Assembly (NCBI GenBank): GCA_902388495.1
Contig: CABMPP010000014.1
Location: forward strand, 1-64,000
Source of the DNA: an uncultured Bacteroides sp.
Lineage (GTDB): Bacteria; Bacteroidota; Bacteroidia; Bacteroidales; Bacteroidaceae
Direction of reading: 5' to 3'
Length of the DNA stretch: 64,000 nucleotides
A model generated the notes under the pieces. It had not been told where the DNA came from, did not search any database, and saw only the letters and a list, made by a program, of their open reading frames with translations. Every line of letters begins with the position of its first letter. The stretch's first letter is position 1. Below, piece by piece: positions 34,452-60,641 of this stretch. The position numbers and the translations under genes were made by a program.

Positions 34452-35276
34452 ATGGAACGACAATATATGTTAAAAGCAATTGATGCTGCTCTACGGGCTG
34501 GTGAAGAAATACTTTCTATCTATGAAGACCCGGCATCCGATTTTCAAATAGAAAAAAAAGCAGATAATTCGCCTCTTACTATTGCTGACCGTAAAGCCCA
34601 TGAAACGATTTGCCGATGGTTGAGTGACACGCCTTTCCCCTTGTTGAGCGAGGAAGGAAAACACTTGTCCTATTCAGAACGTCGGACGTGGGAAACGCTG
34701 TGGATAGTAGACCCTCTGGATGGTACCAAAGAGTTTATCAAGCGGAATGGTGAATTTACGGTAAATATAGCATTAGTTCACAATTCAATTCCTGTGATGG
34801 GCGTTATTTACTTGCCGGTAAAGAAAGAGCTCTATTTTGGAGCTGAAGGGGTGGGAGCCTATAAACTTTCTAACATAGCTGCATGTGGCGAATCTTCTTT
34901 GGATGAGTTGATTGCTGCTGCTACCCGGTTGCCGGAGGCTGGAGCGCACGATAAATTTGTAATTGTAGCTTCCCGTTCGCACCTGACTCCCGAAACCGAA
35001 GCCTACATTGAAGAAATGAAACATCGTCATGCAGAAGTCGAATTGATATCAAGTGGAAGTTCCATCAAAATCTGTCTGGTTGCAGAAGGTAAAGCAGATG
35101 TATATCCCCGTTTTGCTCCTACAATGGAATGGGACACAGCTGCAGGACATGCCATTGCACGCGCTGCCGGCATGGAAATATACCAGGCCGGAAAGGAAGA
35201 ACCGCTGCAATATAACAAAGAAGACTTGCTGAATCCTTGGTTTATAGTGGAGACCAAGCATACTGAAACCAAATAA
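34452..35276 (+). CDS. cysQ: 3'(2'),5'-bisphosphate nucleotidase
   Basis: 274 residues. Inositol-monophosphatase fold: KADNSPLTIADRKAHE, LLSEEGK, metal-binding WIVDPLDGTKEFIKRNGEF and the C-terminal PTMEWDTAAGHAIARAAG. Removes the 3'-phosphate of PAP (adenosine 3',5'-bisphosphate), the by-product left when a sulfotransferase uses PAPS. First gene of an operon that also makes PAPS and encodes a sulfotransferase, which explains its presence here. Confidence 0.94.
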   Translation: MERQYMLKAIDAALRAGEEILSIYEDPASDFQIEKKADNSPLTIADRKAHETICRWLSDTPFPLLSEEGKHLSYSERRTWETLWIVDPLDGTKEFIKRNGEFTVNIALVHNSIPVMGVIYLPVKKELYFGAEGVGAYKLSNIAACGESSLDELIAAATRLPEAGAHDKFVIVASRSHLTPETEAYIEEMKHRHAEVELISSGSSIKICLVAEGKADVYPRFAPTMEWDTAAGHAIARAAGMEIYQAGKEEPLQYNKEDLLNPWFIVETKHTETK

Positions 35277-35284
35277 CAATCCGT

Positions 35285-36838: not shown

Positions 36839-36845
36839 TTGAATT

Positions 36846-37454
36846 ATGACAGAAAAGAATATATATCCTATTTTTGATAAAATGCTTTCCCGAAAAGATA
36901 GGGAGGCATTGATTGGACAACATGCTGTAATGGTATGGTTTACCGGTCTCAGTGGTTCGGGCAAGAGTACTCTGGCCATTGCACTGGAACGTGAGTTGTA
37001 TAAACGCGGTTTTTTCTGCCGCATATTGGATGGTGATAACATTCGCAGTGGCATCAATAATAACTTGGGCTTTACGGAGGCCGACCGTATAGAGAATATC
37101 CGCCGTATAGCCGAGGTCTCTAAACTCTTTATCGATGCAGGTGTTATTACGATCGCAGCATTTATCAGTCCCAACAATGAGATGCGCGAAATGGCAGCCG
37201 ATATCATCGGGCGGGATGATTTCCTGGAAGTTTATGTCAGCACTCCACTCGAAGAGTGTGAGCGTCGCGACGTGAAGGGCTTGTATGCAAAGGCGCGCCA
37301 GGGTGAAATTAAGAATTTCACAGGTATTTCCGCTCCCTTTGAAGTGCCTGCGCATCCGGACCTTTCTCTCGATACCTCTGTTTTGAGTATTGAGGAATCG
37401 GTAGACAGGCTGCTTGAACTTGTATATCCACATATCTTAAAAGAGCAAGACTAA
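36846..37454 (+). CDS. cysC: Adenylylsulfate kinase
   Basis: 202 residues. P-loop GLSGSGKST at about 34-42, DGDNIRSGINNNLGF (APS contact), ENIRRIAEVSKLF, the lid region YAKARQGEIKNFTGISAPFE. Phosphorylates APS to PAPS in the cytoplasm. Seven bases after the permease. Stand-alone, not fused to cysN. Confidence 0.96.
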   Translation: MTEKNIYPIFDKMLSRKDREALIGQHAVMVWFTGLSGSGKSTLAIALERELYKRGFFCRILDGDNIRSGINNNLGFTEADRIENIRRIAEVSKLFIDAGVITIAAFISPNNEMREMAADIIGRDDFLEVYVSTPLEECERRDVKGLYAKARQGEIKNFTGISAPFEVPAHPDLSLDTSVLSIEESVDRLLELVYPHILKEQD

Positions 37455-37474
37455 ATTACACTTTTTGATTGATA

Positions 37475-38386
37475 ATGAAAGAAGAATATAAATTGAGCCA
37501 TTTGAAAGAACTCGAAGCAGAGTCCATTCATATTATCCGTGAAGTGGCAGCGGAGTTTGAGAATCCGGTGATGCTGTACAGCATTGGCAAGGACTCTTCG
37601 GTAATGGTGCGCCTGGCCGAAAAAGCATTCTACCCGGGAAAAGTACCGTTTCCTTTGATGCACATTGATTCTAAATGGAAGTTCAAGGAGATGATACAGT
37701 TCCGTGACGAATATGCCCGGAAGTTTGGTTGGAATCTGATTGTAGAGAGCAATATGGAGGCTTTCCATGCAGGTGTAGGCCCGTTTACGCATGGTAGTAA
37801 GGTACACACGGACTTGATGAAGACGCAGGCCTTGCTCCACGCATTGGATAAATATAAGTTTGATGCAGCTTTCGGAGGTGCCCGTCGTGATGAGGAGAAA
37901 TCGCGTGCTAAGGAACGTATTTTTTCTTTCCGTGACAAGTTCCACCAATGGGACCCCAAGAACCAGCGTCCGGAGTTATGGGATATTTATAATGCCCGCG
38001 TTCATAAGGGAGAGAGCATTCGCGTGTTCCCGTTGAGCAATTGGACGGAATTGGATATCTGGCAATACATCCGCTTGGAGAATATTCCTATCGTGCCTTT
38101 GTACTTCGCCAAGGAGCGTCCTTGTGTAGAGATTGACGGAAATCTGATTATGGCTGATGACGATCGTTTGCCGGAACAATACCGCGATCAGATAAAGATG
38201 CGCATGGTGCGTTTTCGTACATTGGGCTGCTGGCCCTTGACCGGTGCTGTGGAGAGTAATGCCGATACCATCGAAAAGATTGTGGAAGAGATGATGACTA
38301 CCACCAAGAGCGAACGTACTACCCGTGTCATCGACTTTGACCAAGATGCCAGTATGGAGCAGAAAAAGCGTGAAGGTTATTTCTAA
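37475..38386 (+). CDS. cysD: Sulfate adenylyltransferase, small subunit
   Basis: 303 residues from the ATG at 37475 (a TTG two codons earlier is in frame). PP-loop ATPase: [37 protein letters not shown], then [17 protein letters not shown] and the C-terminal R(T)LGCWPLTGA. With CysN it makes APS from ATP and sulfate. 20 bases after cysC. Confidence 0.96.
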
Positions 38387-38413
38387 AGCAACTAATCATA
38401 AAGAACGAAAGAA

Positions 38414-39871
38414 ATGGATAATAAGTTAGATATAAAGGCTTTTCTGGATAAGGATGAACAAAAGGACTTATTGAGGCTGTTGACTGCCGGTTCGGTAGAT
38501 GATGGGAAGTCAACTTTGATAGGGCGTTTGTTGTTCGACAGCAAGAAGCTGTATGAAGACCAGTTGGATGCATTGGAGCGCGACAGCAAACGTATGGGTA
38601 ATGCGGGCGACCATATAGACTATGCGTTGTTGCTGGATGGATTGAAAGCCGAGCGTGAACAAGGCATTACTATTGACGTGGCCTACCGTTACTTCTCGAC
38701 GAACAACCGTAAATTTATTATAGCCGATACTCCGGGACACGAGCAATACACCCGCAATATGATTACCGGAGGTTCCACTGCGAACCTCGCAATCATCCTG
38801 GTAGATGCCCGTATGGGTGTTATTACGCAGACGCGCCGGCATACTTTCCTGGTTTCACTGCTTGGAATCAAGCATGTGGTGCTTGCAGTGAATAAGATGG
38901 ACTTGGTGGACTTCTCGGAAGAACGTTTCAACGAGATAGTCGGTGAATATAAGAAGTTTGTGGCACCCTTGAATATTCCTGATATAAACTGCATTCCTCT
39001 GTCTGCTCTGGATGGCGATAATGTAGTGGAGAAGTCGGAACGTACCCCTTGGTATAAGGGCATTTCATTGCTCGATTTTCTGGAGACTGTACATATCGAT
39101 AATGACCATAATCTCAGAGACTTCCGTTTCCCGGTACAGTATGTGCTGCGTCCTAACCTTAATTTCCGCGGTTTTTGTGGTAAAGTAGCTTCCGGTGTTG
39201 TGCGTAAAGGGGATGAAGTGATGGCATTGCCCTCCGGCAAGAAATCTCATATCAAGAGTATTGTGACTTACGACGGAGAATTGGATTATGCTTTTCCGCC
39301 CCAGTCCGTAACGCTGACTTTGGAAGATGAAATTGATGTGTCGAGAGGGGAGATGCTGGTACACCCGGACAACTTGCCCATTATGGATCGTAATTTCGAA
39401 ACCATGTTAGTATGGATGGATGAAGAACCGATGGACGTCAACAAGTCATTCTTCATCAAACAGACCACCAACCTGAGCCGTACGCGTATTGATAGCATCA
39501 AATATAAGGTGGATGTCAACACGATGGAACACCTTTCCGTGGAGAACGGGAAACTGACGAAGGAGACCCTGCCGATGCAGCTCAACCAGATAGCCCGTGT
39601 AGTACTGACTACTGCTAAAGAACTGTTCTTCGACCCGTATCAGAAGAATAAAGCCTGTGGCTCGTTCATTCTGATTGACCCGATAACTAACAATACCAGT
39701 GCGGTCGGTATGATTATAGATCGGGTAGAAGACAAGGATATGCATATTTCTGCGGATCTTCCCGTATTGGATTTACCGAAATTAGGCATTGCTCCCGAGC
39801 ATTACGAAGCCGTGGAGAAAGCTGTGAAAGACTTGGAACGTCAAGGTATTGAAGTCATAATTAATAAATAG
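38414..39871 (+). CDS. cysN: Sulfate adenylyltransferase, GTPase subunit
   Basis: 485 residues. Elongation-factor-like GTPase: P-loop [10 protein letters not shown] (about 25-34), [31 protein letters not shown], then two beta-barrel domains (about 235-430). GTP hydrolysis drives APS formation by CysD. 27 bases after cysD. Lacks a C-terminal APS kinase fusion, matching the separate cysC. Confidence 0.96.
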
Positions 39872-39920
39872 CAGTTGATTATTGATGATTACTTATACCG
39901 CTTATCGCGCAGCCTAATTG

Positions 39921-39948
39921 TCAATTGTCAATTATCAATTATCAATTA
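39921..39948 (+). repeat. Heptamer repeat in the sulfotransferase leader
   Basis: TCAATTG followed by three TCAATTA units (four 7-bp copies, with a poorer copy CTAATTG before them), ending three bases before the sulfotransferase ATG at 39952. AT-rich tandem leaders are fairly common in Bacteroides, but slippage here would change the cysN-sulfotransferase spacing. Confidence 0.85.
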
Positions 39949-39951
39949 AAA

Positions 39952-41058
39952 ATGGGTTTACTTGAATTCAATAAACTTCCGATAAACACCTTGGTAGGTG
40001 CTGATTGGAAAACTTTTAAAAGCATAACTGGAGGCCGTGAGATAGATGCTGCCTATAAAGGTAAATACCGGCTGACAAAAGCTGTTTGCCGCTTGCTCTC
40101 CACATTGGCTCCCTTGCAGGACAGACGCTACGAAAAGCTACTGGCAGATAAACCGCTGGAGCATGATCCGGTATTTATCCTGGGGCATTGGCGCAGCGGA
40201 ACGACGTTTGTACACAATGTCTTTTCCTGTGACAGGCATTTCGGCTACAACACTACTTATCAAACTGTGTTTCCACACCTGATGATGTGGGGACAGCCGT
40301 TCTTCAAGAAGAATATGAGTTGGCTGATGCCGGATAAACGGCCTACGGATAATATGGAATTGGCTGTAGACCTTCCACAGGAGGAAGAGTTTGCCTTGGC
40401 AAATATGATGCCTTATACGTATTACAACTTCTGGTTTCTTCCGAAGTACCAGCAGGAGTATGCTGATAAGTATCTGCTATTTGATGACATAACGGAAGCT
40501 GAATTGAAAACATTTGAAGAAACATTTGTCAAGCTGATAAAGATTTCTCTTTGGAATACAAACGGCACTCAGTTCCTTAGCAAGAACCCGCCTCATACGG
40601 GACGTGTGAAGGAGCTTGTCAAGATGTTCCCGAATGCGAAGTTTATCTACCTGATGCGTAATCCTTATACGGTATTCGAGAGCACCCGCAGCTTCTTTAC
40701 CAATACTATCCAGCCTCTGAAATTGCAGGATATCAGCAACGAAGAACTGGAAAAGAATATCCTCTCCATCTATACAAAGTTGTATCATAAGTATGAGGCG
40801 GATAAGGCAAGCATTCCCGCAGGAAATCTGATAGAGGTGAAGTTTGAAGATTTTGAGGCGGATGCAATGGCGATGACCGAACATATCTACAATGCCTTGT
40901 CAATCCCCGGCTTTGAGAAAGCTCATGCTGATATCGAGAAGTATGTAGGCGGAAAGAAAGGTTATAAAAAGAATAAATATAAGTACGATGACCGCACGGT
41001 ACAACTGGTTCAGGATAACTGGAACTTTGCATTGGAGCAGTGGAAGTACGAAATTTAG
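39952..41058 (+). CDS. PAPS-dependent sulfotransferase
   Basis: 368 residues from the ATG at 39952; the upstream part of the frame is the heptamer repeat. No signal peptide. The PAPS 5'-phosphosulfate loop is HWRSGTTFVHN (Arg81-Thr85) and the 3'-phosphate site is YLMRNPYTVFESTRSFF (Arg236, Ser244). Family: Sulfotransfer_3-like. The cysQ-permease-cysC-cysD-cysN cluster supplies PAPS and removes PAP. An orthologous cluster in B. thetaiotaomicron was, as I recall, shown to sulfonate steroidal metabolites; the same acceptor here is inference. Confidence 0.9.
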   Translation: MGLLEFNKLPINTLVGADWKTFKSITGGREIDAAYKGKYRLTKAVCRLLSTLAPLQDRRYEKLLADKPLEHDPVFILGHWRSGTTFVHNVFSCDRHFGYNTTYQTVFPHLMMWGQPFFKKNMSWLMPDKRPTDNMELAVDLPQEEEFALANMMPYTYYNFWFLPKYQQEYADKYLLFDDITEAELKTFEETFVKLIKISLWNTNGTQFLSKNPPHTGRVKELVKMFPNAKFIYLMRNPYTVFESTRSFFTNTIQPLKLQDISNEELEKNILSIYTKLYHKYEADKASIPAGNLIEVKFEDFEADAMAMTEHIYNALSIPGFEKAHADIEKYVGGKKGYKKNKYKYDDRTVQLVQDNWNFALEQWKYEI

Positions 41059-42103: not shown

Positions 42104-42125
42104 CCTTATATTTCCCTAATACCTA

Positions 42126-43247
42126 TTATTCCAGGATTACTACGCGGTTCAAGAAGTTCTTACCGAACATATTTGCAGTACCACCGAATCCAACGAGTTC
42201 GAGTTGGTCTTTATCAACGCCCTGAGCGATCAAAGCATCATAAACAGCCTGAGCACGTTTTTCAGACAACTTCTGGTTCCAGGAAGCACTACCGGTAGCT
42301 TTGTCAGCATAACCTGCAACTTTGTACTTCTTATCCGAATTAGCCTTCAGGATTTTAGCAGCCAGTTCGATGTTAACCTTGCCGTAATCGTCAATCTTGG
42401 CACTGCCGAGTTTGAAGAAGATGGCACGAGGACCGGCAACTTCAACTTCCTTAGTCACTTCCTTTACTTCAGGTTTCACGTTAGCCAATGCATTCTTGCA
42501 GTTAGCCAAGTCAGCCTGAGCTTGTGCCAGTTCGCTTCTGTATTTGTTGATTTCAGCATTGATAGCATCTTCATCAACTTTGGGACCGCAAGTTACAAAC
42601 TTCTTACCACCGAAAGTGTAAGCTACACCCGCGGTTAGAGATATTGCACCGTCTGTGTGCGCAGAACTGTAGTTCCCGAAGATAGACGGAGACACTTCGC
42701 CTCTGGCTTCAATGTTGATGTCCAGATAACGGTTTACATTGAACTGTCCCATTAAACCGACAGAACCGTTAATCAAAGCATTCAATTTGCTTTGGTCACC
42801 GTAAGTCTTGGCAAAAGTCAAACCGGGACCGGCGAATACCGACAGTGTGAACACACGGCTGGGGTTATAACCGCCAATTGCATTGGAGAGATTGAACAAA
42901 CCGTCGGCACGCAGTGTGAAGTAGTTTTTGTTCTTTACTTCATTGTACTGATTGGCAGGCATTCCATAATTGGAATACAATGTAGACCACATTCCGGCTA
43001 CTTGTCCGCGAACACCCCAAACCGGGTTAAACAGTTTACCCACTGATATATGTATCAGCGGTGTGATGGCATGGCCCAAACCATAATCACTGTTGTCAGG
43101 GTTTACACAAACTTGGCCTCCTACACCAGCGCTGATAAAGATATTGTCTTTAAACTTCTCGCTGTAGTATTTCTCCTTTGTCTGTGCAGTTGCCGTCAAG
43201 GCGAAGCCTGCCAACATAATAGATAATATACTGAATTTATATTTCAT
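42126..43247 (-). CDS. OmpA-family protein, cluster A
   Basis: 373 residues. Signal peptide (1-22, ending TATAQ), an N-terminal beta-barrel (about 25-215), a helical linker (DEDAINAEINKYRSELAQAQ onward) and an OmpA C-terminal domain (about 265-373) with the peptidoglycan-binding helix LSEKRAQAVYDAL. Linker and C-terminal domain are almost identical to the paralogue at 51469-52605, which is in the opposite orientation, while the barrels differ much more. Last gene of cluster A. Confidence 0.9.
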   Translation of the reverse strand: MKYKFSILSIMLAGFALTATAQTKEKYYSEKFKDNIFISAGVGGQVCVNPDNSDYGLGHAITPLIHISVGKLFNPVWGVRGQVAGMWSTLYSNYGMPANQYNEVKNKNYFTLRADGLFNLSNAIGGYNPSRVFTLSVFAGPGLTFAKTYGDQSKLNALINGSVGLMGQFNVNRYLDINIEARGEVSPSIFGNYSSAHTDGAISLTAGVAYTFGGKKFVTCGPKVDEDAINAEINKYRSELAQAQADLANCKNALANVKPEVKEVTKEVEVAGPRAIFFKLGSAKIDDYGKVNIELAAKILKANSDKKYKVAGYADKATGSASWNQKLSEKRAQAVYDALIAQGVDKDQLELVGFGGTANMFGKNFLNRVVILE

Positions 43248-43293
43248 TGTTTTATGTTTTTAATGATAAACTCTTGCTTCTTGCGTCTGTCTT

Positions 43294-44037
43294 TTATTTC
43301 AATCGGAACTGAAAACAAATTCCTCCGCTGAAATATTTCAACCGTTGCAATTCCACCTGCATGTGCAGATGTTTGAAAAGCAGGTAAGTGGCACCCAGTG
43401 CAACATCTTTTGAATCATATTCGGCTATAACCCTCAAATCGGGAGCAAAAGCCGGATTGTAACTGATGCCGGCGGCTATTCCATTTAGTTTGTACTCCTT
43501 TCTTTGGTTATATAGGTAGGAGAGGTGTATGCCGATCTCCTCTTTCCCTATAGCGATATGCTTGCTGGCGGCAATATAGAAACGGTTGTAATATCCGTTT
43601 CCTTCGGTCGAGCTGATTTTCCCGCCTCCGGAAGAGGTGAATGGATCGGATGCTCCCAAAACAACTGCCGGCATATATTTCCAGAACTGTCCTTCTTTCA
43701 AAGCCCGCAAGCGGAATGAAAAGTAACGGTCCTGATTGGTGAATCCGCTATAACCGTAAGGTTTCAGCCCTAAGGCTTCCGCCTTGAAAAGGGTACACGT
43801 ATATGCCACTTCCAGCCATGGCATAATGGTTACATTCAAAAAATAATTGTACGTATGATAGTACCACGTAGGAGGAGTTATCTCCTTATTTAAAAAGTTA
43901 CCGCCCAGCATTACCGTTTTGTCCCGTTGCATTTCTGCCGATGGGGCATGAAGCAAGCCGGTGGTTCCATACGTTAATTGAGCCGGAAGCAGAGAAGGTA
44001 TGCAGGCAAAAAATAGTGCGATGCATAGTTGCTTCAT
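43294..44037 (-). CDS. YjbH/GfcD-like protein, N-terminal-module type, cluster A
   Basis: 247 residues from the ATG at 44037. Signal peptide (about 1-20) then GTTGLLHAPSAEMQ, which matches the start of YjbH/GfcD-family exopolysaccharide secretion proteins; later RYFSFRLRALKEGQFWKYMP and YIAASKHI also match the conserved YjbH N-terminal pattern. YjbH proteins are about 700 residues; this one stops after the first part. Roughly four-fifths identical by eye to 52734-53483. Probable outer-membrane beta structure. Encoded between the lipoprotein and OmpA genes. Confidence 0.7.
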   Translation of the reverse strand: MKQLCIALFFACIPSLLPAQLTYGTTGLLHAPSAEMQRDKTVMLGGNFLNKEITPPTWYYHTYNYFLNVTIMPWLEVAYTCTLFKAEALGLKPYGYSGFTNQDRYFSFRLRALKEGQFWKYMPAVVLGASDPFTSSGGGKISSTEGNGYYNRFYIAASKHIAIGKEEIGIHLSYLYNQRKEYKLNGIAAGISYNPAFAPDLRVIAEYDSKDVALGATYLLFKHLHMQVELQRLKYFSGGICFQFRLK

Positions 44038-44093
44038 TCTTGTTGTATACATTCTGATGCCTCCGGTTCAATGAGCACTTAGAAAAGATCCTC

Positions 44094-46202
44094 TTATTCG
44101 AAGTCGATGATACCACCACCGGCATTCAGATCCTGACCGTTGCCATGACCATGTGTATGACCGATTTCCAAGTCAGCTTCGATGGTTGTAGCAATAATCT
44201 TCTTCACTGTTACCGTGACATCGATTGTCTTCTTGTCTTTGGTGATTACCTGAACGGTGTAAGTCTTCATCTGTTGCTTTCTGGTCAGATTGAATCCTTT
44301 GACTTGCTTGTAAGGTGCAACAGTCAGTTGTACAGATACACTTTGGTTAGTATAGCTGCTGTTAGGCAGAATGTTAGCATTGTCAGCCTTGATCATCTTA
44401 GTAAGCAGCAGAGCTACATAGTTGGCTGTCTCCTTGTTCATGCTTGGTAAAGCAGCGGCAGCAGCTTCAGCCGGAGTCTTGCCTTCATAAGCAGTACCAC
44501 CCAAATAATTGCCTTTTACAGTTACGCTGGCAGATGCAGAGCCGGTGAAGCAAGGTTTGTTAATGTATTCGGCTGCCAAGTCTGCACTGGCTCCGATTTT
44601 AACCTCAGAAACATAACCGAATCTGAACTTGGAGAAGTGATTAATCTTGCCCACAAATGCTTTGGAGCTCATGTCATACTCGGCATAGTTATTGGCATCT
44701 GCTTTCCAGGTATTGGTATTCTCGTTCAGATAAAGAACGCCGAGTACATAGTCCGGTTCTACGGTTACAGTAGTCGGAGCCTCGAACTTGATTTCGAGTG
44801 GTTTGGAGAATACTGCACCACTGGGCTGACCTTCATAAGTACGAACGGCAGCTGTAGTCTTTTCTGTCATGATATCGCGTTTCAAAGAAACGTTTTCAGC
44901 TTTTCCACCTACATAGTAAATCTGTGTTCCGGCAGGAATAGTTATCTGGTCTGCTACAGCTTTTGTCTCACCGGTTGTTTCACCAGTTTCTTCGTCGATA
45001 ACAGCTTCAGTAGATACCAATTCTACCACAGCATCAGATTTAACTTCTACTGTCGGTATGTTTTCAAGCTCTTTCAAGTCGATACCTAATTCTTCTGCTA
45101 CAGTTTCAAGACTTGAACTGATGTTGGCGTCTTTCAATGCATCTTCTACCGGAGTCGGCTTGGCGTCTTCCACAGGAACTTCCAATGTTTCGTCACCACC
45201 TACTTCTTGGTCAGGATCGGGAGGAGTAGTGGTATCTATCTTCATGGTGAAAGTACCCGTGTATTGCCATACGGCACCGCTTTCTTTCAGAGGAACCCAC
45301 ATGCTGATTGTCTGTTCTATATATCCGTTCTTGCTTACAGTGATATAGGCCATTGTTGTCGGCAATACGTACTTGGCAGGAATTTCTACACTGTAGATAC
45401 CTTTGGCATCGCTGGTAGTCGTACCGCTAAAGCCTGTATTGGTAGTTACTTTGATGGTAGCATTGTTGATAGCAGCGTCTTTTTCATCTTTAAGCATACC
45501 TCCAATATAGTATTTAGCTTCTTGTTGTTGCTCTGCTTCAGTCTTCTGCATCAGTACAGTAGCAACCGTAACGGCAACTTGCTCGCCTTCACCTTCTTGT
45601 GCTGCAACCGGAGCAACATAGATGTTTGCATAGGCTTTGTTGTAACCTTCGGCAGTCAGTACAGCTGCATAATTACCCGGCTGTACATTCTCAACAGTAA
45701 AAGCGTTGCCGCTGACAGTTACATTGTCAAGACCTGCAATAACTACAGACTTCAAGGCTACAGCTGCACCCGATGTGTCGCTTGCGCTACCTTTGATGCT
45801 GTATTTTACAGTTTTGTATGTCGGGTCGTCATAACCCGGATACATGGCTGCATTTACAGTATAAACGGCAGTCTTGCCATTCTCGATGGTTTCTACATAT
45901 ACAGAACTTGTTACGGTTTTGTAATCTGCCTTAGAGATCGTAATGACGTTCATCCCGGCATCTACAGTCATCTCATACGTACCGTCTGCTCCGGTAGTTG
46001 TGTTATTGACTGTTGCTCCTGACAGAGGCTTTCCGGTAACAGCATCCGAAACGACGCCTGCAATCTTGTATACCGGCTTTTCGGTGCTTGGACCTTCTAC
46101 ATTGATCTCTTCTTTTTCATAGCAACTGGCAAACATGCCGCAGATTGCTATTAACATTAACGCTAACTTAGCGCTAAACCCAAATAAACTTTTCTTTTTC
46201 AT
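44094..46202 (-). CDS. Large lipoprotein with carboxypeptidase-regulatory-like repeats and a His/Gly tail, cluster A
   Basis: 702 residues. Lipoprotein signal with lipobox FASC (about Cys27). Three CarboxypepD_reg-like beta-sandwich modules follow: IAGVVSDAVTGKPLSGATV, then IKGSASDTSGAAVALKSVVI, then IGGMLKDEKDAAINNATI. An acidic Pro/Glu linker (about 330-360) leads to a large C-terminal region, reminiscent of DUF3869 lipoproteins, that ends HTHGHGNGQDLNAGGGI. The same tail plan ends the shorter lipoprotein at 50527. Probably surface or periplasmic; His residues could bind metal. Ten bases after the large-barrel gene. Confidence 0.75.
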   Translation of the reverse strand: MKKKSLFGFSAKLALMLIAICGMFASCYEKEEINVEGPSTEKPVYKIAGVVSDAVTGKPLSGATVNNTTTGADGTYEMTVDAGMNVITISKADYKTVTSSVYVETIENGKTAVYTVNAAMYPGYDDPTYKTVKYSIKGSASDTSGAAVALKSVVIAGLDNVTVSGNAFTVENVQPGNYAAVLTAEGYNKAYANIYVAPVAAQEGEGEQVAVTVATVLMQKTEAEQQQEAKYYIGGMLKDEKDAAINNATIKVTTNTGFSGTTTSDAKGIYSVEIPAKYVLPTTMAYITVSKNGYIEQTISMWVPLKESGAVWQYTGTFTMKIDTTTPPDPDQEVGGDETLEVPVEDAKPTPVEDALKDANISSSLETVAEELGIDLKELENIPTVEVKSDAVVELVSTEAVIDEETGETTGETKAVADQITIPAGTQIYYVGGKAENVSLKRDIMTEKTTAAVRTYEGQPSGAVFSKPLEIKFEAPTTVTVEPDYVLGVLYLNENTNTWKADANNYAEYDMSSKAFVGKINHFSKFRFGYVSEVKIGASADLAAEYINKPCFTGSASASVTVKGNYLGGTAYEGKTPAEAAAAALPSMNKETANYVALLLTKMIKADNANILPNSSYTNQSVSVQLTVAPYKQVKGFNLTRKQQMKTYTVQVITKDKKTIDVTVTVKKIIATTIEADLEIGHTHGHGNGQDLNAGGGIIDFE

Positions 46203-46212
46203 CTCAATAAAA

Positions 46213-47250
46213 TTAAAAATTTAACAATTCTGATTTAATAAAATATGGATTAAAACTATTTGATTGCATGATGTTGTCTCCCGGAGATGCACGATAAGTC
46301 TTGTAGCTGTATTGCTCATTTCCGGCATTGTATGCCATTCCCATGTTCCTGGATGGGGTGACGCGGGGTATATATCCTTTTCTTTTATATCTGTAAGGTG
46401 GAAGTGCTATTTGGAAGCGAAATCCTCCGTTAGCTTTGGCATCAGGACTTTTCATTGCGAAAAAACCGATGGAGGCATAGCGGAAGTGGCGGATGACATC
46501 GATTCGCACTCCCTTTTCTCCCAATAAGTATTGTTCACACTTCATGCTTGTTTCTATATTATATTGTGGCCAGTAGAAGCTGCCTCCCAACGACCATGTT
46601 AGTTTCATTTTTGTACCGTAATGGCAGGTAAACCCATCCCAATATGCTACTCCCGTATATCCTATCCGTGCTTCTATGCCGAAACGGTTGTCGCGGATAA
46701 GGCGATGCGTGAGCTTCAGATCCATGCCATAGCGTTCATTGCTAAAGTGTCCTATGGTAAATGTCCCCCATATATTATAAGGTAGGCGTATCATTTGCGA
46801 AATGCCTATAAAACCCGGATGTACCTTGTTATATAGGAATGGATATCCATCGTTGTAAACAGGCAATACCAATTGTGTTGTCAATCTCATGCCTTTCCAT
46901 AGAGAAACCTCAATGGCCGGAGCCAGATTGAACAGTACTTGGTATATCTGTGTTATTACCAGATTCTTAAGAGATAATTCCGGATATACCACCACATCTA
47001 CTTTAAACAAAGAACTATTCTTTCTCTTTACTTTTTTCACCTCTTTCCATGTCTCACCTAAATCGTAACTTACATTCCAATCTTGATGGCTTGGTTTTGA
47101 TATTGTATCTACTTTATTATCAACGTGATAGTAAAGAGAAATTTGGGGTATATTATTATCGAGTACAATTATCCGGCATGGCTTTTTCTCCGGAAATGAC
47201 ATCGTAAAAAACAGGAAATCAGAATAAATATGTAACGCCTTGAATATCAA
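46213..47250 (-). pseudogene. 5'-truncated large beta-barrel protein, cluster A
   Basis: 345 codons open, but homology to the complete paralogue at 49266-50513 starts only at an internal Met (about codon 17, near 47202), at MSFPEKKP versus MGLPEKKS. About 88 paralogue residues, including the signal peptide, are missing, and nothing matching them or a -7 box lies just upstream. From there to the end it is collinear and ends with the same NPYFIKSELLNF. Without a signal peptide it should not reach the outer membrane. Decayed copy, or part of a recombination system that supplies the missing 5' end. Confidence 0.7.
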
Positions 47251-47521
47251 TTGAATTTATTGAATGTTGCTACTTTTATTGAAAATGATTATCCTTCTCT
47301 ATCCTTCACTTTTGATAGGTGATTGTTACTGGTTTGTTGCTATATTTAGTCTATATATCGTCTTAATCATATAACGCTAATTGCTGATATTCAGAGGAAT
47401 AAATCTAAAAAGACTAAATTGTAGAGAATAAAAATGAAATACCAAATCTTTTATGAGTGACTTTTGTTACTGTTTTGTGACTAATAGCAGATAAATGTGT
47501 GTTTTTTTGATAGATAAGATT
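47251..47521. other. AT-rich spacer between truncated barrel gene and recombinase
   Basis: No gene, no clear TAnnTTTG box toward cluster A, and no copy of the missing 5' end of the barrel gene. A TTTTG-rich stretch around 47460-47482 may hold the recombinase promoter. Confidence 0.4.
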
Positions 47522-48661
47522 ATGAGAAAGCAATTGAAAATAAAAGAGCCTATAAAAGTTAGGACAAAGAAACTGGCCAATGGTTGCCAGTCTATATACC
47601 TGGATATATATTTGGATGGAAAACGGAAATATGAGTTCTTAAAATTGTATATCATCCCCGAACGTGACAGGATAGACAAGAACAAGAACCTTGAAACATT
47701 GAAGTTAGCAAATGCAATAAAGTCTCAGAAGATCGTAGAATTACAAAATCAGACTTATGGATTTAACCGCACTAAAGTATCTAAGGTGAAATTAACTGAT
47801 TATATGAGAGACATAGCAGAGCAAAGTGCTGATAACCTGGCACGGAAAAGTACGATACATGCTGTTATATGCCATTTGGATAACTATACCCCCGATGGAA
47901 TATTGCTTAGAAAAGTAGATAAGGCATATTTATTAGGGTTCATAGATTATTTGAAGAAAGCAAAACAAAAACATAGTAAGAAAGAAAAAGCATTGCATGT
48001 TAATACCCAACTCCATTATTTTAAGACGTTACGCTATTGCTTGAATTGTGCTGTTTCTGAAGAATATATAACCAGTAATCCGATTGATAAAATGAAAAGT
48101 GAAGATAAACCCAAACGCCTCCGGACAGAGAGGGATTATCTCAGCATGAAAGAACTGACAGATTTAGTGCACACTCCTTTTTATAATACTCTGCTGAGGA
48201 AAGCCTTTTTGTTTAGCTGTTTTTGCGGGTTGCGGCATTGCGATATTGTAGCCTTACGATGGAAAGACATACGTTATGAGGAGAATGGAAATGCATTGCT
48301 GCACATCATACAACAAAAGACGAAAGAGGCTATATCGCTTCCATTGAGCACTGAGGCATTAAAGTACTTACCGCATAGGGGAAATGCTCAGAACTCGGAT
48401 AGGGTGTTTGCAGGCTTAATTTCATTGGGGCGAAGTAATGAAATACTATATAGATGGGCAGAACAAGCAGGAATATCCAAGCATGTCACTTTTCATACCG
48501 CACGTCATACACATGCTACAATGATGTTGACATTAGGAGTCGATTTGTATACCGTTTCCAAGTTGCTGGGGCATACCAATATACAAACAACACAGGTTTA
48601 CGCTAAACTTGTAGATGAGAGCAAGAAAAAGGCTGTTGCACTTATTCCTAATATTACATAA
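47522..48661 (+). CDS. Tyrosine site-specific recombinase (integrase)
   Basis: 379 residues from the ATG at 47522. Arm-type DNA-binding N-terminus (about 1-85), SAM-like core-binding domain (about 88-190) and catalytic domain (about 200-370). All catalytic residues are visible: Arg238 in GLRHCD, Lys266 in QQKTKE, His325 and Arg328 in FHTARHTHA, His351 in LLGHTNI, Tyr360 in TTQVYAK. Lower-GC, more A/T-rich than its housekeeping neighbours. It lies alone between two divergent paralogous clusters; no excisionase or mobilisation genes. It may be a phase-variation recombinase or the relic of a small integrated element. Confidence 0.93.
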   Translation: MRKQLKIKEPIKVRTKKLANGCQSIYLDIYLDGKRKYEFLKLYIIPERDRIDKNKNLETLKLANAIKSQKIVELQNQTYGFNRTKVSKVKLTDYMRDIAEQSADNLARKSTIHAVICHLDNYTPDGILLRKVDKAYLLGFIDYLKKAKQKHSKKEKALHVNTQLHYFKTLRYCLNCAVSEEYITSNPIDKMKSEDKPKRLRTERDYLSMKELTDLVHTPFYNTLLRKAFLFSCFCGLRHCDIVALRWKDIRYEENGNALLHIIQQKTKEAISLPLSTEALKYLPHRGNAQNSDRVFAGLISLGRSNEILYRWAEQAGISKHVTFHTARHTHATMMLTLGVDLYTVSKLLGHTNIQTTQVYAKLVDESKKKAVALIPNIT

Positions 48662-49190
48662 CCTTCAGTTAAAGCCGGAATACAATATGTCATTCTGTAT
48701 TTTTAATCATTAATTCTTCTTACCTTCTTCTTATCTTCTCCTTACCTACTCCTTACTTACTCCTTAGTTACTCCTTACTATAAGCAAGGAGTAGGTAAAG
48801 AGAAGATACATAAAGGGGGATAGTCAGATACGAACAGGAACTATTGAAGATGCATTCCCGATGCAGGGAATAAACGAATTTACTGATAGGATATTTGTTC
48901 TTTGGTAGTATCTGTTGTCTGTTATAATGTATATATGTGGAATTAATGCATATTTATTCTTAATTTTATAAAAGGCTTTTCTAATTGTTCTTTTTGGAGA
49001 TGCTGAACGAGTTAGCGAGAATTGATAAAAAGCTACTATATGACACAAAAAACAACATTATAGTCTACAAAAGCGCATAATACTCCTTAATAGTTCAGGA
49101 TAGTTAAGACATTACATATAAACATTCTGGGTGTTTATCAGGTGTTTTTGAAGAAAAAACTACATTATTTCATTTTTTCATATAATAATC
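48662..49190. other. Non-coding region with recombinase-type repeats
   Basis: About 530 bp without a gene. It holds the inverted repeat described separately, with three TACTCCTTA copies, and one isolated further copy at 49081-49089. No conserved reading frame; a 74-codon minus-strand frame at 48824-49048 has no features of a real protein. Confidence 0.6.
48732..48808. repeat. 23-bp inverted repeat with 11-bp direct repeats, candidate recombination site
   Basis: Arms 48732-48754 and 48786-48808 pair at 22 of 23 positions around a 31-base loop. TACTCCTTA recurs at 48747, 48758 and 48769 (11-bp period) and once more at 49081. Placed 70 bases after the recombinase stop, it may be its terminator, its binding site, or both. 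Confidence 0.65.
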
Positions 49191-49221
49191 TTTGGTATTA
49201 TTAAAAAAGTGTCTATTTTTG
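49191..49221 (+). promoter_or_regulatory. Promoter of cluster B (-33 and -7 boxes)
   Basis: TTTG (49191-49194), 19 bases, then TATTTTTG (49214-49221): an exact match to the Bacteroidetes TTTG-N19-TAnnTTTG layout. Leader of about 40 bases to the ATG at 49266. Confidence 0.8.
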
Positions 49222-49265
49222 CACCATATTTTGTGTTGCGTGAACACAAAAAATGATTGAAAAAG

Positions 49266-50513
49266 ATGAGGTATAAAAACTCTAACATAAGAAAGTGCCT
49301 AAATACTAAAACAATAGCGCAATGCGCGGCGTTCTTTTTATACTGTTTGCTTCCTTTAAAGGGATTTTGCCAAACGGGGGAAAGTACCGTAAATACTTTA
49401 GTAGAGATGGGATTTGAAAATGTTGGATGGACAGAAGACGGCAATGAACGTGTATATGTTCTGCAGAATTCTGCATATCGTTTACAAGGGGTCGGCATAA
49501 GCAAGGCGGTGGATGTCATCCAAAAGATGGGTTTACCGGAGAAAAAGTCATGCCGGATAATTGTTTTAAACAATAATGTACCTCAGATCTCACTTTATTA
49601 TCATCCTTTAAAGGGTGATAGCGTGCTTCAGGCAGAACGCAACGACTGGAATGTCAGTTATGAGTTGGGTGATGCATGGAAAGAGGCGCGAAAGATAAAG
49701 TTGAAAAATAGTTCTTTGTTTAAGGTTGATGTATTGGTGTATCCTCAATTGGCATTCAAGAATCTGATAATTACGCAGATTTATCAGGTCTTGTTTGATT
49801 TGAGTCCTGCTATAGAAGTTTCGTTTTGGAAAGGGATGAAGGTAACTGCACAGCTGAAGGTGCCTGTTTATAATGATGGGTATGGGAAGTATGAAGGTAA
49901 GGTTCATCCTGGTAACTTGACGATATCGCAGCGTTTACGATTGCCGTATAATATATTCGGTAAGGTGACCGCTGGTTATTTTAATGCAGACCAATATGGT
50001 TTTGATGCGGAGTTTTTCCGTCCTTTTAATGATGAGCGTTTTTCGCTGCTGGCCCGAATTGGATATACGGGAACGGGATATTGGGATGGCTTTAAATTGC
50101 ATTATGATCCCTCGACATGGGTTGTTACCTGGTCTTTAGGAGGCAGTTTTTATTGGCCGCAATTTAATACCCAGTTTACGTTGAAAGCCGAGCAGTATTT
50201 GATGGAGGAAAAAGGAGTCAGATTTGAAATGATTCGTCATTTTCGTTATTGCTCAATAGGCTTTTATGCAATGAAGGCAGAAAACGCAAAGTCTAATGGT
50301 GGCTTTCGGTTTCAAGTGGCTTTGCCACCCTATAAATATAAAAGGAAGGGATATATACCGCGTGTGAATACTTCTGCTAATATGGGTATTGTTTATAATG
50401 CAGGTAACGAACGACTTTATTATAAGCAGTATAAGGCAGAGGCTAGCGATAATATAATGGAACAAAATAGTTTTAACCCATATTTTATTAAGTCAGAATT
50501 GTTAAATTTTTAA
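49266..50513 (+). CDS. Large outer-membrane beta-barrel protein, YjbH C-terminal-like, cluster B
   Basis: 415 residues from the ATG at 49266 (a TTG three codons upstream is also in frame). Signal peptide with a long basic start, ending FCQ (about residue 36). A small N-terminal domain (about 37-125, with GFENVGWTEDGNERVYVLQN) precedes many beta strands: KVTAGYFNADQYGFDAEF, ARIGYTGTGYWDGF, WSLGGSFYWPQF, GGFRFQVALPPYKY. The late part resembles the C-terminal barrel of YjbH/GfcD. Full-length paralogue of the truncated gene at 46213. First gene of cluster B, 13 bases before the lipoprotein gene. Confidence 0.7.
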   Translation: MRYKNSNIRKCLNTKTIAQCAAFFLYCLLPLKGFCQTGESTVNTLVEMGFENVGWTEDGNERVYVLQNSAYRLQGVGISKAVDVIQKMGLPEKKSCRIIVLNNNVPQISLYYHPLKGDSVLQAERNDWNVSYELGDAWKEARKIKLKNSSLFKVDVLVYPQLAFKNLIITQIYQVLFDLSPAIEVSFWKGMKVTAQLKVPVYNDGYGKYEGKVHPGNLTISQRLRLPYNIFGKVTAGYFNADQYGFDAEFFRPFNDERFSLLARIGYTGTGYWDGFKLHYDPSTWVVTWSLGGSFYWPQFNTQFTLKAEQYLMEEKGVRFEMIRHFRYCSIGFYAMKAENAKSNGGFRFQVALPPYKYKRKGYIPRVNTSANMGIVYNAGNERLYYKQYKAEASDNIMEQNSFNPYFIKSELLNF

Positions 50514-50526
50514 TTAAATTATTGAG

Positions 50527-51423
50527 ATGAAGAAGATTAAATTCTTAAACGGCATGAGTGCAGTATTTGCATTAGCCGTAGTAGCTTTGGCTACAACTTT
50601 CACTTCTTGTGAGAAGGAAGAGTTCAATGTAAAAGTTGAACCAATTAATGCACAGGCCACTATTAGTCCGATTGTACTTGCTGTAGAAAATGGCGTTACT
50701 AAAGATGTAACAGGTGATGCTGCTATTACCTATGATCCGGCTTCTACATTTACAGGTAGCCCTAGTTTTGCTGGTGCAACAGTTACTATTGGAGTTACTT
50801 ATAAGGATATGAGCACATCAGTAAAAGTAATTGTTCCGGCATTGCAAGCTGGTCAGTTCGCTTCACTGACTCCGACTATTATTCTTCAGAAAGAGGCTCC
50901 TGAAACGAAGATTGAAATGAATGAAACTGCAACAACTCAGGAGGTTTCTAAGGATGGTAACAAAGAAGTACCTAACCCTACTGATTATTGGGTTACTACA
51001 ACTGTGAAGTATACGAAAAAATCTGGTAATTTAGTTTTGGAAGATTCAAAGGTTATTAATACTACAGATTTTTCAGAACGTATGCTTGCTGAATCTTTCT
51101 TTAGTACGCTTAAGAATACTTATGAGGAAACTCCTGCCGTTGAAGAGGGCGTTAAAGTATATGCTCATTCTCAAACAGAAGCTAAAGTAGTTTATACTGT
51201 TGTAACGACTGAATATAAGATCGTTAAGACTGCAGATGCTAATACGAAGGCTGGAGAAGAAGTTCTTGCTTCTATTAAGACTCAAAATTATACGAAGACA
51301 GATTTGCAAATCAAAGATAACCAACCTATTCCGGGTCACAATCATGCTCCTCAAGGTCATGGTCACGGTCATGGTCATGGTGATGATGGTAACGCAGGTG
51401 GCGGTATTGTAATCGCTGACTAA
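50527..51423 (+). CDS. Lipoprotein with a His/Gly-rich tail (DUF3869-like), cluster B
   Basis: 298 residues. Signal with lipobox FTSC (about Cys27) followed by EKEEFNVKVEP, closely like the cluster A lipoprotein start (EKEEINVEGP). A beta-sandwich (about 35-120), a second domain, then a C-terminal tail GHNHAPQGHGHGHGHGDD and NAGGGIVIAD. I place it with DUF3869-type Bacteroides lipoproteins by recall. Shorter than the cluster A form because the three regulatory-like modules are absent. The His cluster may bind metal. Confidence 0.7.
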   Translation: MKKIKFLNGMSAVFALAVVALATTFTSCEKEEFNVKVEPINAQATISPIVLAVENGVTKDVTGDAAITYDPASTFTGSPSFAGATVTIGVTYKDMSTSVKVIVPALQAGQFASLTPTIILQKEAPETKIEMNETATTQEVSKDGNKEVPNPTDYWVTTTVKYTKKSGNLVLEDSKVINTTDFSERMLAESFFSTLKNTYEETPAVEEGVKVYAHSQTEAKVVYTVVTTEYKIVKTADANTKAGEEVLASIKTQNYTKTDLQIKDNQPIPGHNHAPQGHGHGHGHGDDGNAGGGIVIAD

Positions 51424-51468
51424 TTGATTTCTTGCTGTAGTTATTTATCTTAAAACTAAAGAGAAAAG

Positions 51469-52605
51469 ATGAAAAGTAAATTAATAATAGCCTCTTTATT
51501 GTTAGCAGGCGCTTGTGCTACGGTTAGTGCACAAGAAAAGACTAAATATTATACCGATAAGGCATCGGATAATATCTTTGTAGGAGTAGGCGTTGGGGGT
51601 ATGGCCGTAATTAACGACGGTCTCAATACTCCGACAATGAACTTTAATATCTCCGTAGGTAAGTATATCACTCCGGTTTGGGGTGTGCGTGGTCAATTTG
51701 GTGGAATTTCTCAAAGCCTTGATGATCAGGATTCTGGTTATCATCGTTATTGCAAGAAATTCGGCGAAATTAACTTGGATGCTATGGTAAATCTGATTAA
51801 TTTGTTCGCTGGCTATAATCCTAACCGTGCATTCGACCTCTATGTATTTGGTGGTCCTACAATGAACGTAAGTAAGGCAGTAGATACTGATCTTAGTATT
51901 AATGCTGGTACAGGCAAGGAAACCTATTCTTATACAGAAGATGGTATGAAAGCCCGCTTCGGTGCAACTGTAGGTTTGGGCTTGGCTTATAACATCAGTT
52001 CAAAATGGGCTGTTAACCTGGAAGGTCGTTTGGGCGTAACTCCTTCTATCTTCGGTGATGCAAGCGACTGCCGCAAGGCTGAAGCTACTGCTCGCGTAAA
52101 CGTAGGTTTGGCTTATACTTTCGGTGGCAAGAAGTTTGTTGCTGCTTCTAATATTGACGAAGATGCTATCAACGCAGAAATCAACAGATACAGAAGCGAA
52201 CTGGCACAGGCTCAGGCTGACCTGGCTAACTGCAAGAATGCATTGGCTAACGTGAAACCTGAAGTAAGAGAAGTTACTAAGGAAGTTGAAGTTGCCGGTC
52301 CTCGTGCTATCTTCTTCAAGATTGGTAGCGCTCGTCTTGACGACTACGGTAAGGTTAACATCGAATTGGCTGCTAAGATCCTGAAGGCTAATCCGGATAA
52401 GAAGTACAAAGTTGCAGGTTATGCTGATAAGGCTACCGGTAGCGCTTCTTGGAACCAGAAGTTGTCTGAAAAACGTGCTCAGGCTGTTTACGATGCTTTG
52501 ATCGCTCAGGGTGTTGACAAAGATCAGCTCGAACTCGTTGGATTCGGTGGTACTGCAAACATGTTCGGTAAGAACTTCTTGAACCGCGTAGTTATTCTTG
52601 AATAA
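51469..52605 (+). CDS. OmpA-family protein, cluster B
   Basis: 378 residues. Signal peptide (1-21, ending VSAQ), N-terminal barrel (about 25-220), helical linker and OmpA peptidoglycan-binding domain (about 270-378). From DEDAINAEIN to the last residue it differs from the cluster A protein at only a few positions, at DNA level too, whereas the barrels differ in length and sequence. It anchors the outer membrane to peptidoglycan; the partner proteins of the cluster may sit beside it. 45 bases after the lipoprotein gene. Confidence 0.9.
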   Translation: MKSKLIIASLLLAGACATVSAQEKTKYYTDKASDNIFVGVGVGGMAVINDGLNTPTMNFNISVGKYITPVWGVRGQFGGISQSLDDQDSGYHRYCKKFGEINLDAMVNLINLFAGYNPNRAFDLYVFGGPTMNVSKAVDTDLSINAGTGKETYSYTEDGMKARFGATVGLGLAYNISSKWAVNLEGRLGVTPSIFGDASDCRKAEATARVNVGLAYTFGGKKFVAASNIDEDAINAEINRYRSELAQAQADLANCKNALANVKPEVREVTKEVEVAGPRAIFFKIGSARLDDYGKVNIELAAKILKANPDKKYKVAGYADKATGSASWNQKLSEKRAQAVYDALIAQGVDKDQLELVGFGGTANMFGKNFLNRVVILE

Positions 52606-52637
52606 TATAACTTCAGTGGAAAATAGACTCTAATAAT

Positions 52638-52669
52638 GAAGGCGTCTGGAATTCAGACGCCTTCTTTTT
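52638..52669 (+). terminator. Terminator after the cluster B OmpA gene
   Basis: Stem GAAGGCGTCTG / CAGACGCCTTC with loop GAATT and a T-tract; it separates the small YjbH-like gene from the rest of cluster B. Confidence 0.9.
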
Positions 52670-52722
52670 AGTATATCTGCTGTTATAGAATATATCTGAT
52701 TTTTATCATTAGTGACTGAACC

Positions 52723-52730
52723 TATATTTG
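52723..52730 (+). promoter_or_regulatory. -7 promoter box of the small YjbH-like gene, cluster B
   Basis: TATATTTG ends directly before ATGATG. By the usual spacing transcription would start at about 52734, the A of the second ATG, giving a leaderless mRNA. Confidence 0.55.
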
Positions 52731-52733
52731 ATG

Positions 52734-53483
52734 ATGAAGTTTAAACTACTCTTTATCGTTCTTCTTTGTTGCTTGTCTCTTTCGATTTCTGCCCAATTGA
52801 CGTATGGTACAACTGGTTTGCTGCATGCCCCTTCGGCTGAAATGCAACCTGATAAAACCTTTATGGTCGGTGGAAATTTCATGAATAAAGAATTGACGCC
52901 GCCTACCTGGTATTATCATACTTATAATTATTTTCTGAATATTACTATATTCCCGTGGATGGAAGTTGCCTATACTTGTACGCTTTTTAAAGCGGAAGCA
53001 TTGGGATTGAAACCTTATGGATATAGTGGATTTACCAATCAGGATCGTTACTTCTCATTGAGATTGCGAGCCTTGAAGGAAGGACAATTCTGGGAGTATA
53101 TGCCTGCGGTAGTGGTAGGAACATCCGATCCGTTTACCTCTTCCGGAGGTGGAGTAATCAGTTCTACCGAAGGGAACGGATACTATAGCCGTTTCTATAT
53201 TGCTGCCAGCAAGCATGTGCCTATTGTAGGTAAAGAAGAAATAGGTGTTCACCTCTCTTATCTCTACAATGATCGTAAAGAGTATAAGTTGAATGGCTTT
53301 GCATTGGGTGTCACTTATAATCCGTCTTTTCATCCCCAGCTACGGTTGATAGCTGAATATGACTCGAAAGACTTTGCTTTAGGTGCAACTTACTTGCTGT
53401 TTAACCATTTTCACATTCAAGTGCAAATGCAGAAAATGCAGTATTTCAGCGGTGGATTAACCTATCAACTTCGTCTGAAGTAA
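52734..53483 (+). CDS. YjbH/GfcD-like protein, N-terminal-module type, cluster B
   Basis: 249 residues from the ATG at 52734 (52731 also possible); chosen because the -7 box predicts transcription starting there. Signal peptide (about 1-20, ending SISAQ), then GTTGLLHAPSAEMQPDKTFM, the YjbH N-terminal hallmark, and later YSGFTNQDRYFSLRLRALKE and YIAASKHV. Paralogue of 43294-44037. In cluster B it follows OmpA and has its own promoter and terminator, whereas in cluster A it precedes OmpA. Probably an outer-membrane partner of the large barrel. Confidence 0.7.
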   Translation: MKFKLLFIVLLCCLSLSISAQLTYGTTGLLHAPSAEMQPDKTFMVGGNFMNKELTPPTWYYHTYNYFLNITIFPWMEVAYTCTLFKAEALGLKPYGYSGFTNQDRYFSLRLRALKEGQFWEYMPAVVVGTSDPFTSSGGGVISSTEGNGYYSRFYIAASKHVPIVGKEEIGVHLSYLYNDRKEYKLNGFALGVTYNPSFHPQLRLIAEYDSKDFALGATYLLFNHFHIQVQMQKMQYFSGGLTYQLRLK

Positions 53484-60413: not shown

Positions 60414-60641
60414 AGAAAAAATAGCCGCATTGATTGGATCGGGAAACTCATCAATTTTTATGAAATACCGAGACAAGCTTCGCTTCTCAATGGCGGGCCA
60501 CGCCCTTCGGGGTAACTCTTGAGTCGGTGGATTACAAAGAGGACGAGCGCTCAAATCATGTCATACGGAGTTTCATCACATCATCGGTGCGGCTTTCTAT
60601 AAAAAAGGAACGGTAATCAATCAAAATTACCGTTCCTTTTT
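60414..60641 (+). ncRNA. Probable Bacteroidales-1 small RNA
   Basis: About 228 bases bounded by a consensus promoter and a perfect intrinsic terminator, with no plausible coding frame. The middle is GC-rich and locally pairing (GCGGGCCACGCCC, CTTCGGGG). The Bacteroidales-1 RNA motif is known to have a Bacteroidetes promoter at one end, a terminator at the other, and to lie downstream of the L20 gene; this region meets all three criteria. Function of the RNA is unknown. The start is estimated from the -7 box. I did not fold it against the family model. Confidence 0.75.
60601..60641 (+). terminator. Terminator of the small RNA
   Basis: Stem AAAAGGAACGGTAAT / ATTACCGTTCCTTTT with an eight-base loop and T-tract. 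Confidence 0.9.

Follow-up and report, generated by a model that had tools for sequence, protein, structure and literature searches.

A stretch of 64,000 nucleotides (nt) from an uncultured Bacteroides sp. (GenBank assembly GCA_902388495.1, contig CABMPP010000014.1, positions 1 to 64,000 of the forward strand; hereafter the window) carries a locus that is very probably an operon-scale switch, in which site-specific DNA inversion chooses between two outer-membrane operons, A and B. In the mechanism that we propose, a 2.4-kb cassette would encode the tyrosine recombinase that acts on it and contain a single promoter together with a gene's 5' end. The inverted sites at its borders lie within the reading frames of two alternative genes for the C-terminal barrel. 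The recombinase would pair the inverted sites and flip the cassette, moving the promoter and leader from the first gene of operon B to that of operon A. Since the cell has one leader, one operon would be expressed and exported at a time. The window is in the B-on state, and operon A is presumably silent at present. The anatomy of the locus, the site, both orientations across species and both kinds of junction in relatives are documented below at the level of sequence.

Layout of the locus

Two inverted four-gene clusters lie on either side of a complete tyrosine recombinase, as the initial annotation of the window had described, with all eight genes and the recombinase at the positions first assigned to them. 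The features are as follows.

42126 to 43247, minus strand: OmpA-family protein, operon A, 373 amino acids (Pfam OmpA)
43294 to 44052, minus strand: YjbH N-terminal barrel homologue (YjbH-N), operon A, 252 amino acids (PF06082, profile 3-119 of 658, E 1e-11)
44094 to 46202, minus strand: His-tailed lipoprotein, operon A, 702 amino acids (three CarboxypepD_reg stretches in Pfam)
46213 to 47193, minus strand: YjbH C-terminal barrel gene, leaderless body, operon A; frame called to 47250, promoterless in the present orientation
47165 to 47193, minus strand: inverted site A, 29 bp, proposed crossover site within coding sequence (site search)
47194 to 49535, no strand: proposed invertible cassette (spacer, recombinase, hairpin, promoter, leader), with an inverted counterpart in locus L071 relative to L069
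47495 to 48661, plus strand: tyrosine recombinase, 388 amino acids (PF17293, PF13102, PF00589)
48710 to 48825, plus strand: long hairpin of ~11-bp repeats, possible insulator (z -5.9)
49191 to 49221, plus strand: Bacteroides-type promoter TTTG-N19-TATTTTTG (strict pattern match)
49257 to 49535, plus strand: putative mobile leader with an in-frame ATG at 49266, coding for the signal peptide and the opening half of a small periplasmic domain
49257 to 50513, plus strand: YjbH C-terminal barrel gene, operon B, whole frame with leader and promoter attached
49536 to 49564, plus strand: inverted site B, 29 bp, proposed crossover site within coding sequence (site search)
49536 to 50513, plus strand: YjbH C-terminal barrel body, operon B, now joined to leader and promoter (PF06082, 475-597)
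50527 to 51423, plus strand: DUF3869 His-tailed lipoprotein, operon B, 298 amino acids (PF12985, E 5.2e-21; 3kog, E 7e-41)
51469 to 52605, plus strand: OmpA-family protein, operon B, 378 amino acids (Pfam OmpA)
52728 to 53483, plus strand: YjbH N-terminal barrel homologue (YjbH-N), operon B, 251 amino acids (PF06082; model resembles FapF)

The open reading frame coordinates agree with the annotation that gene order differs between the clusters, A running barrel, lipoprotein, YjbH-N, OmpA and B running barrel, lipoprotein, OmpA, YjbH-N. Its statement that the set occurs twice holds for the barrel (65% protein identity over 330 residues), OmpA (59%) and YjbH-N (78%) and is loose for the lipoproteins, which are alike only in their first 37 residues and His-rich tail. 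The missing 5' end of cluster A's first gene is likewise real: homology between the two barrels ends abruptly, A is without the ~90 residues that hold B's signal peptide, and tblastn found no trace of this leader upstream of A.

Just inside the point where homology stops, both barrel genes contain a feature that the annotation had not listed, the inverted pair CCGGAGAAAAAGyCATGCCGGATAATTGT, identical at 28 of 29 positions. At up to 3 mismatches, the window holds these two matches and no third, against 0.00 expected (none in 100 shuffles). Between the sites lie the recombinase, the hairpin, B's leader and the sole strict promoter that reads into either operon. The exact promoter annotated for B, and the lack of one for A, were reproduced by the strict pattern search: cluster A and the region upstream of it have no match on the minus strand, and the two other matches in 41.0-54.5 kb are both antisense inside a cluster. 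In the structural model, the proposed crossover falls at a loop that halves the periplasmic domain.

The hairpin in the gap between recombinase and promoter is built from ~11-bp repeats (TTCTCCTTACC) and is perhaps an insulator. Similar long hairpins occupy this position in L066, L071 and L005 and a weaker one in L003, with none of note in L064, L065 and L004.

Conservation of the site and of the leaderless genes

Related loci were compared after setting aside L002 (misplaced anchor, stop in the left body, flanks off the contig) and the fragments L001, L067, L068, L076-L084 and L100. In the 12 loci compared, the 17-bp core of the site is present in 27 of 27 copies. Within-genome pairs (n=18) are 0.29 identical upstream of the core, 0.95 in it and 0.74 downstream. 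Silent third-codon positions agree at 0.98 in the core versus 0.53 downstream in these same pairs, and at 0.68 versus 0.46 in 333 pairs between genomes. The site is thus held alike inside each genome while drifting between species, as would be expected of recombining sites. One or two mismatches separate a locus's own site copies in L005 and L075 (2 of the 12 loci) and in the window.

A promoter lies upstream of all 12 leadered copies and of none of the 15 leaderless ones. The 15 leaderless bodies that were translated are open, and the ratio of nonsynonymous to synonymous substitution rates (dN/dS) is 0.04-0.09 in four leaderless-leaderless pairs (among 14 pairs with measurable dS), indicating purifying selection; these pairs come from two lineages, with three of the four B. 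fragilis-like. Such low values suggest that leaderless copies have probably been used at some time. Stops fall inside the match in copies of genomes G001, G021, G034, G087, G099, G152 and G154. The bodies of G021, G034, G099 and G152 are open from the junction on, and their stops therefore lie in the spacer; in G001 the stop is within the body. The leaderless genes of this locus, truncated as they look, are probably reserves and not fragments.

Orientation of the cassette in relatives

The genes flanking the locus are fixed, with a PCMD-domain gene on one side and YqgF and def on the other. Against these flanks, both orientations occur. Among the 11 loci with both flanks (L003, whose flanks are off the contig, was left out of this count only), the recombinase and leader point to YqgF in eight (the window, L004, L005, L006, L064, L069/70, L073/74 and L075) and to the PCMD gene in three (L065, L066 and L071/72). 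The single fixed orientation with identical content that would have spoken against a switch was therefore not what the comparison across Bacteroides genomes gave. Three genomes (L069/70, L071/72 and L073/74) have three bodies, here X, Y and Z, and one leader, a three-way version of the switch.

Two of these are sister genomes and offer the closest view of a flip. Positions 1407-9937 of L069, comprising the left flank and operon X, are collinear with 1-8529 of L071 at 97.2%, and the right flank is collinear at 96.0%. Positions 10572-19305 of L069, with the recombinase and operon Y, match L071 16209-7481 inverted at 92.8%, with a breakpoint at the site. The leader (99.0% identity over 300 bp) is followed by body X in one sister and by body Z in its counterpart. 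Body X itself (97.7% identity over 900 bp) has the leader in one of them and lacks it in the second. Inversion across sites X and Z would produce this pattern. The first breakpoint is clean; the second can be seen only in the spacer, since operon Z is not the same in the two genomes (0.61 ungapped identity). The spacers of L069 Z and L071 X have an ungapped identity of 0.28-0.35; by eye both contain AGATTAAACGATACCTCTCCC, out of register.

Leader-body junctions in database proteins

Alternative junctions also appear among database proteins, for which three lists were used (the best 120 of 1155, of 4618 and of 1230 matches). P0027 (407 amino acids, 30 contigs) consists of the B. salyersiae L004 leader (82/82) joined to the L004 leaderless body (324/325). 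At the lone mismatch, in the codon immediately before the core, the protein agrees with the leadered copy, which places the crossover in or just past the core. P0024 similarly unites the L075 leader (89/89) with the L075 leaderless body (322/325). P0108 has the L064 leader (89/89) and is not decisive because its body resembles both L064 copies, the leaderless one at 308/326 and the leadered one at 291/326. Among the 223 listed proteins and the window's two, 9 of the 17 groups of at least two members with like leaders have bodies below 90% identity. Runs of N (G011) and contig ends (G154) fall at leader/body junctions; mixed populations would give such gaps, but repeats could too, and they were not counted as evidence. 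Taken together, the orientations, the leader-body combinations, the like sites and the distribution of the recombinase described next support the annotation's suggestion of a system that can switch or reshuffle variants.

The recombinase and its distribution

Pfam recognizes an Arm, a SAM-like and a Phage_integrase domain (the last as PF00589, E 5.9e-25) in the recombinase, which retains the motifs GLRH, HTAR, LLGH and QVY, which we take to be catalytic. A survey of 158 Bacteroides genomes (barrel at E <= 1e-60; recombinase at E <= 1e-110, with the best 12 candidates scored per genome) found the barrel in 82 and the recombinase in 17. A barrel copy starting beyond query residue 60 was present in 16 of the 82; G065 was set aside because contig ends truncate both of its copies beyond the junction, leaving 15 genomes that could be judged. 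The recombinase accompanies the leaderless copy in 14 of these 15, versus none of the 66 barrel genomes without one. This co-occurrence suggests that the window's recombinase performs the inversion.

Searching the genome contigs with the recombinase yielded 23 loci. Five of these, from B. fluxus (L002), B. nordii (L003), B. salyersiae (L004) and B. fragilis (L005 and L006), share the arrangement of a leaderless barrel to one side of the recombinase and a leadered barrel to its opposite side. Of the rest, L001 is fragmentary and 17 lack any match to the barrel. The recombinases of L101 (G076), L102 (G019) and L007 are 57-60% identical to the window's and have no barrel match nearby. The site pattern CCNGANANAAAGYCATG matched 94 of the 158 genomes, mostly as one isolated CCGGAAAGAAAGCCATG per genome, and its clustered opposing matches sit at this locus. 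Because CCNGANANAAAGYCATG misses several spellings (0 matches in G155 and G024), absence of the site elsewhere is weak evidence.

Alternative explanations

Several observations weigh against an inversion switch. The within-genome pair X/Z of L069 has a dN/dS of 0.29, the B. fluxus leaderless copy contains an in-frame stop, and the leaderless copy that adjoins the recombinase in G011 is spread over three frames. In G087 a leaderless copy with a degenerate site (L068) occurs in the absence of the recombinase; G019, G076 and G151 carry the recombinase without barrels. Like leaders on different bodies could stem in part from homologous exchange. Finally, the window's own species shows the present state only, as a leaderless A (P0001) and a full-length B (P0114), among the best 120 of 1155 and of 1230 proteins.

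The alternative that survives best, which we nonetheless consider improbable, is that the inversions are real and arise by ordinary homologous recombination between the inverted copies, the recombinase being a bystander. Clusters A and B do share long inverted stretches (454 nt at 92% and 439 nt at 79%), and gene conversion is seen near the site in L064, L065 and L069. The breakpoints, however, are at the 17-bp core while the bodies downstream are often only ~70% alike, and silent positions are frozen in the core alone. Moreover, the recombinase lies inside the cassette in the compared loci and tracks the leaderless copies across genomes.

It is very improbable that the locus is an old inverted duplication in which B works, A is a decaying copy that has lost its 5' end, and no switching takes place. 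Such a history would account for a leaderless and promoterless A, for the broken copies of B. fluxus and G011, and for the single state listed for the window's species. It fits poorly with the 15 open leaderless bodies, with the strong purifying selection on the four measurable pairs, with the database proteins and the sister genome in which leaderless bodies recur behind the same leader, and with an orientation that varies between species. The reading of A as a pseudogene was rejected because of the dN/dS values and the leaderless bodies found leadered elsewhere.

Hardly tenable is the possibility that a mobile element entered barrel A, with the recombinase as its integrase and the site as its attachment site. 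In favour of this are the usual integrase domains and related proteins in phage records (identity of at most 45%) and in a viral contig (48%). Against it, the recombinase keeps a constant place between the same flanks in several species, and the repeats, which lie inside both genes, are inverted rather than direct. The open reading frame list, without a further scan for element genes, has no other element gene between the barrels, and none of the 480 phage records reaches 60% identity.

Gene products

The products are split homologues of the YjbH/GfcD family, a proposed exporter of capsular polymer. Both YjbH-N proteins match the N-terminal part of the YjbH profile in Pfam, and barrel B matches the C-terminal part narrowly (26.3 bits against a cut-off of 24). 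Barrel A has no YjbH match of its own in the Pfam scan and is assigned to the family because it is homologous to barrel B. From these placements it follows that each cluster carries the YjbH/GfcD halves as separate genes; in neither cluster are the two barrels in one polypeptide.

In structural models, the N barrel is like FapF, and the C barrel appears to have 12-13 strands and to follow a periplasmic domain. Similarity in fold links the modelled barrel to OmpG and to the polysaccharide porins PelBC, PgaA and BcsC, with FadL and other porins scoring equally. Foldseek gave no match for the C barrel at E <= 1e-3. Sequence searches against solved structures gave none for the C barrel, a single match for the N barrel (E 0.42) and the solved protein 3kog for lipoprotein B.

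The final 454 nt of the two OmpA genes (42124-42577 and 52154-52607) are 92% identical, as against 59% for the whole proteins, which suggests gene conversion of the C-terminal domain.

The four products of an operon probably form one outer-membrane complex. Our guess is that this complex exports or displays a polymer or a lipoprotein, and that the switch thereby diversifies the surface; we hold a role in polymer or lipoprotein export to be about as probable as its absence. The annotation's envelope export stands as far as the family relationship goes, and not for the export of a cargo. A wider picture is possible, although we advance it tentatively and lean against it: in many gut Bacteroides, a self-contained cassette may pick one of two or three operons for split GfcD-like export machines, each variant barrel would dock through the constant half-domain to a shared periplasmic line, and barrel, OmpA and lipoprotein would be exchanged as a set. 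If this is true, a single inversion would change the polymer or lipoprotein that is exported or shown to phages and the host.

Neighbouring features

Sulfate activation genes at 34452-41058 adjoin the PCMD gene that flanks the switch, and comprise an inositol-phosphatase family member, an APS kinase, a PAPS-reductase-like protein, an EF-Tu-like GTPase and a sulfotransferase. The annotation had taken related genes beside a sulfonation operon as a hint of a link with surface polymers; the sulfonation genes are real, and nothing beyond adjacency was found to connect them with the switch. Elsewhere in the window are a tandem array at 18182-18381 (41-bp unit, 4.9 copies, 91% matches) and, at 60423-60600, the Rfam Bacteroidales-1 RNA, a suggested 6S RNA (204.8 bits).

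Comparison with known systems

The locus has three features by which inversion switches are recognized, namely short inverted repeats bounding a segment, both orientations (here across species) and a nearby recombinase with an intact catalytic domain. Inversions described in gut Bacteroidales, in the part available of a 2025 review, affect promoters, surface proteins, exopolysaccharide (EPS), restriction, SusCD genes, larger segments and the interior of genes (PMC12632263). In the partial literature covered by our search, no description of this locus as invertible was found, and Bacteroides with YjbH and inversion gave no match; key inversion catalogues lie outside that coverage and may mention the locus.

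One of the closest parallels is Tsr0667 of B. fragilis, described in the part consulted of a later paper as a master enzyme for shufflon-type inversions of three SusC/SusD clusters and nine other regions (PMC4747536). As there, a Bacteroides invertase would act through multiple inversions to put alternative outer-membrane genes under expression. Here, however, the recombinase is inside the invertible cassette, the clustered sites are at this locus (in a search whose pattern does not capture several spellings), and the products are split YjbH/GfcD barrels, OmpA proteins and lipoproteins. No SusC/SusD domain was found among the ten locus proteins scanned, which sets the locus apart from the Tsr0667 shufflon.

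The invertible-promoter S-layer/OmpA loci of B. thetaiotaomicron, as far as the available text of that study goes, are phase-variable surface operons as well, with site-specific integrases and OmpA-family genes close by (PMC12118408). There the promoter inverts at CCGTTACCTABVRAGTAAC, whereas here the crossover would lie inside a gene, and a search of the window that allowed up to 3 mismatches gave no copy of this 19-bp repeat.

With regard to the products, the excerpts available on the YjbH/GfcD double-barrel proteins of Escherichia coli (PF06082, DUF940) describe the same FapF-like N barrel and 12-13-strand C barrel behind a periplasmic domain (PMC11494523, PMC9603273). In the window, the halves are instead two genes per cluster, alongside OmpA and a His-tailed lipoprotein, and cutting and rejoining would affect the C-barrel gene. 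DUF3869 lipoproteins with OmpA and DUF940 neighbours share the gene neighbourhood and the His-rich tail; the available part of their description notes the gene clustering without mention of inversion, leader or recombinase (PMC4387736).

Inversion switches themselves are known in Bacteroides. What appears to be new here is a cassette encoding its own recombinase, a crossover within coding sequence and a choice between whole split-double-barrel operons. The locus offers a handle on the role of split YjbH/GfcD barrels in Bacteroides, for which the portions of the literature consulted report no function, and it illustrates how a flip inside coding sequence could decide which whole outer-membrane operon receives a promoter and a signal peptide.

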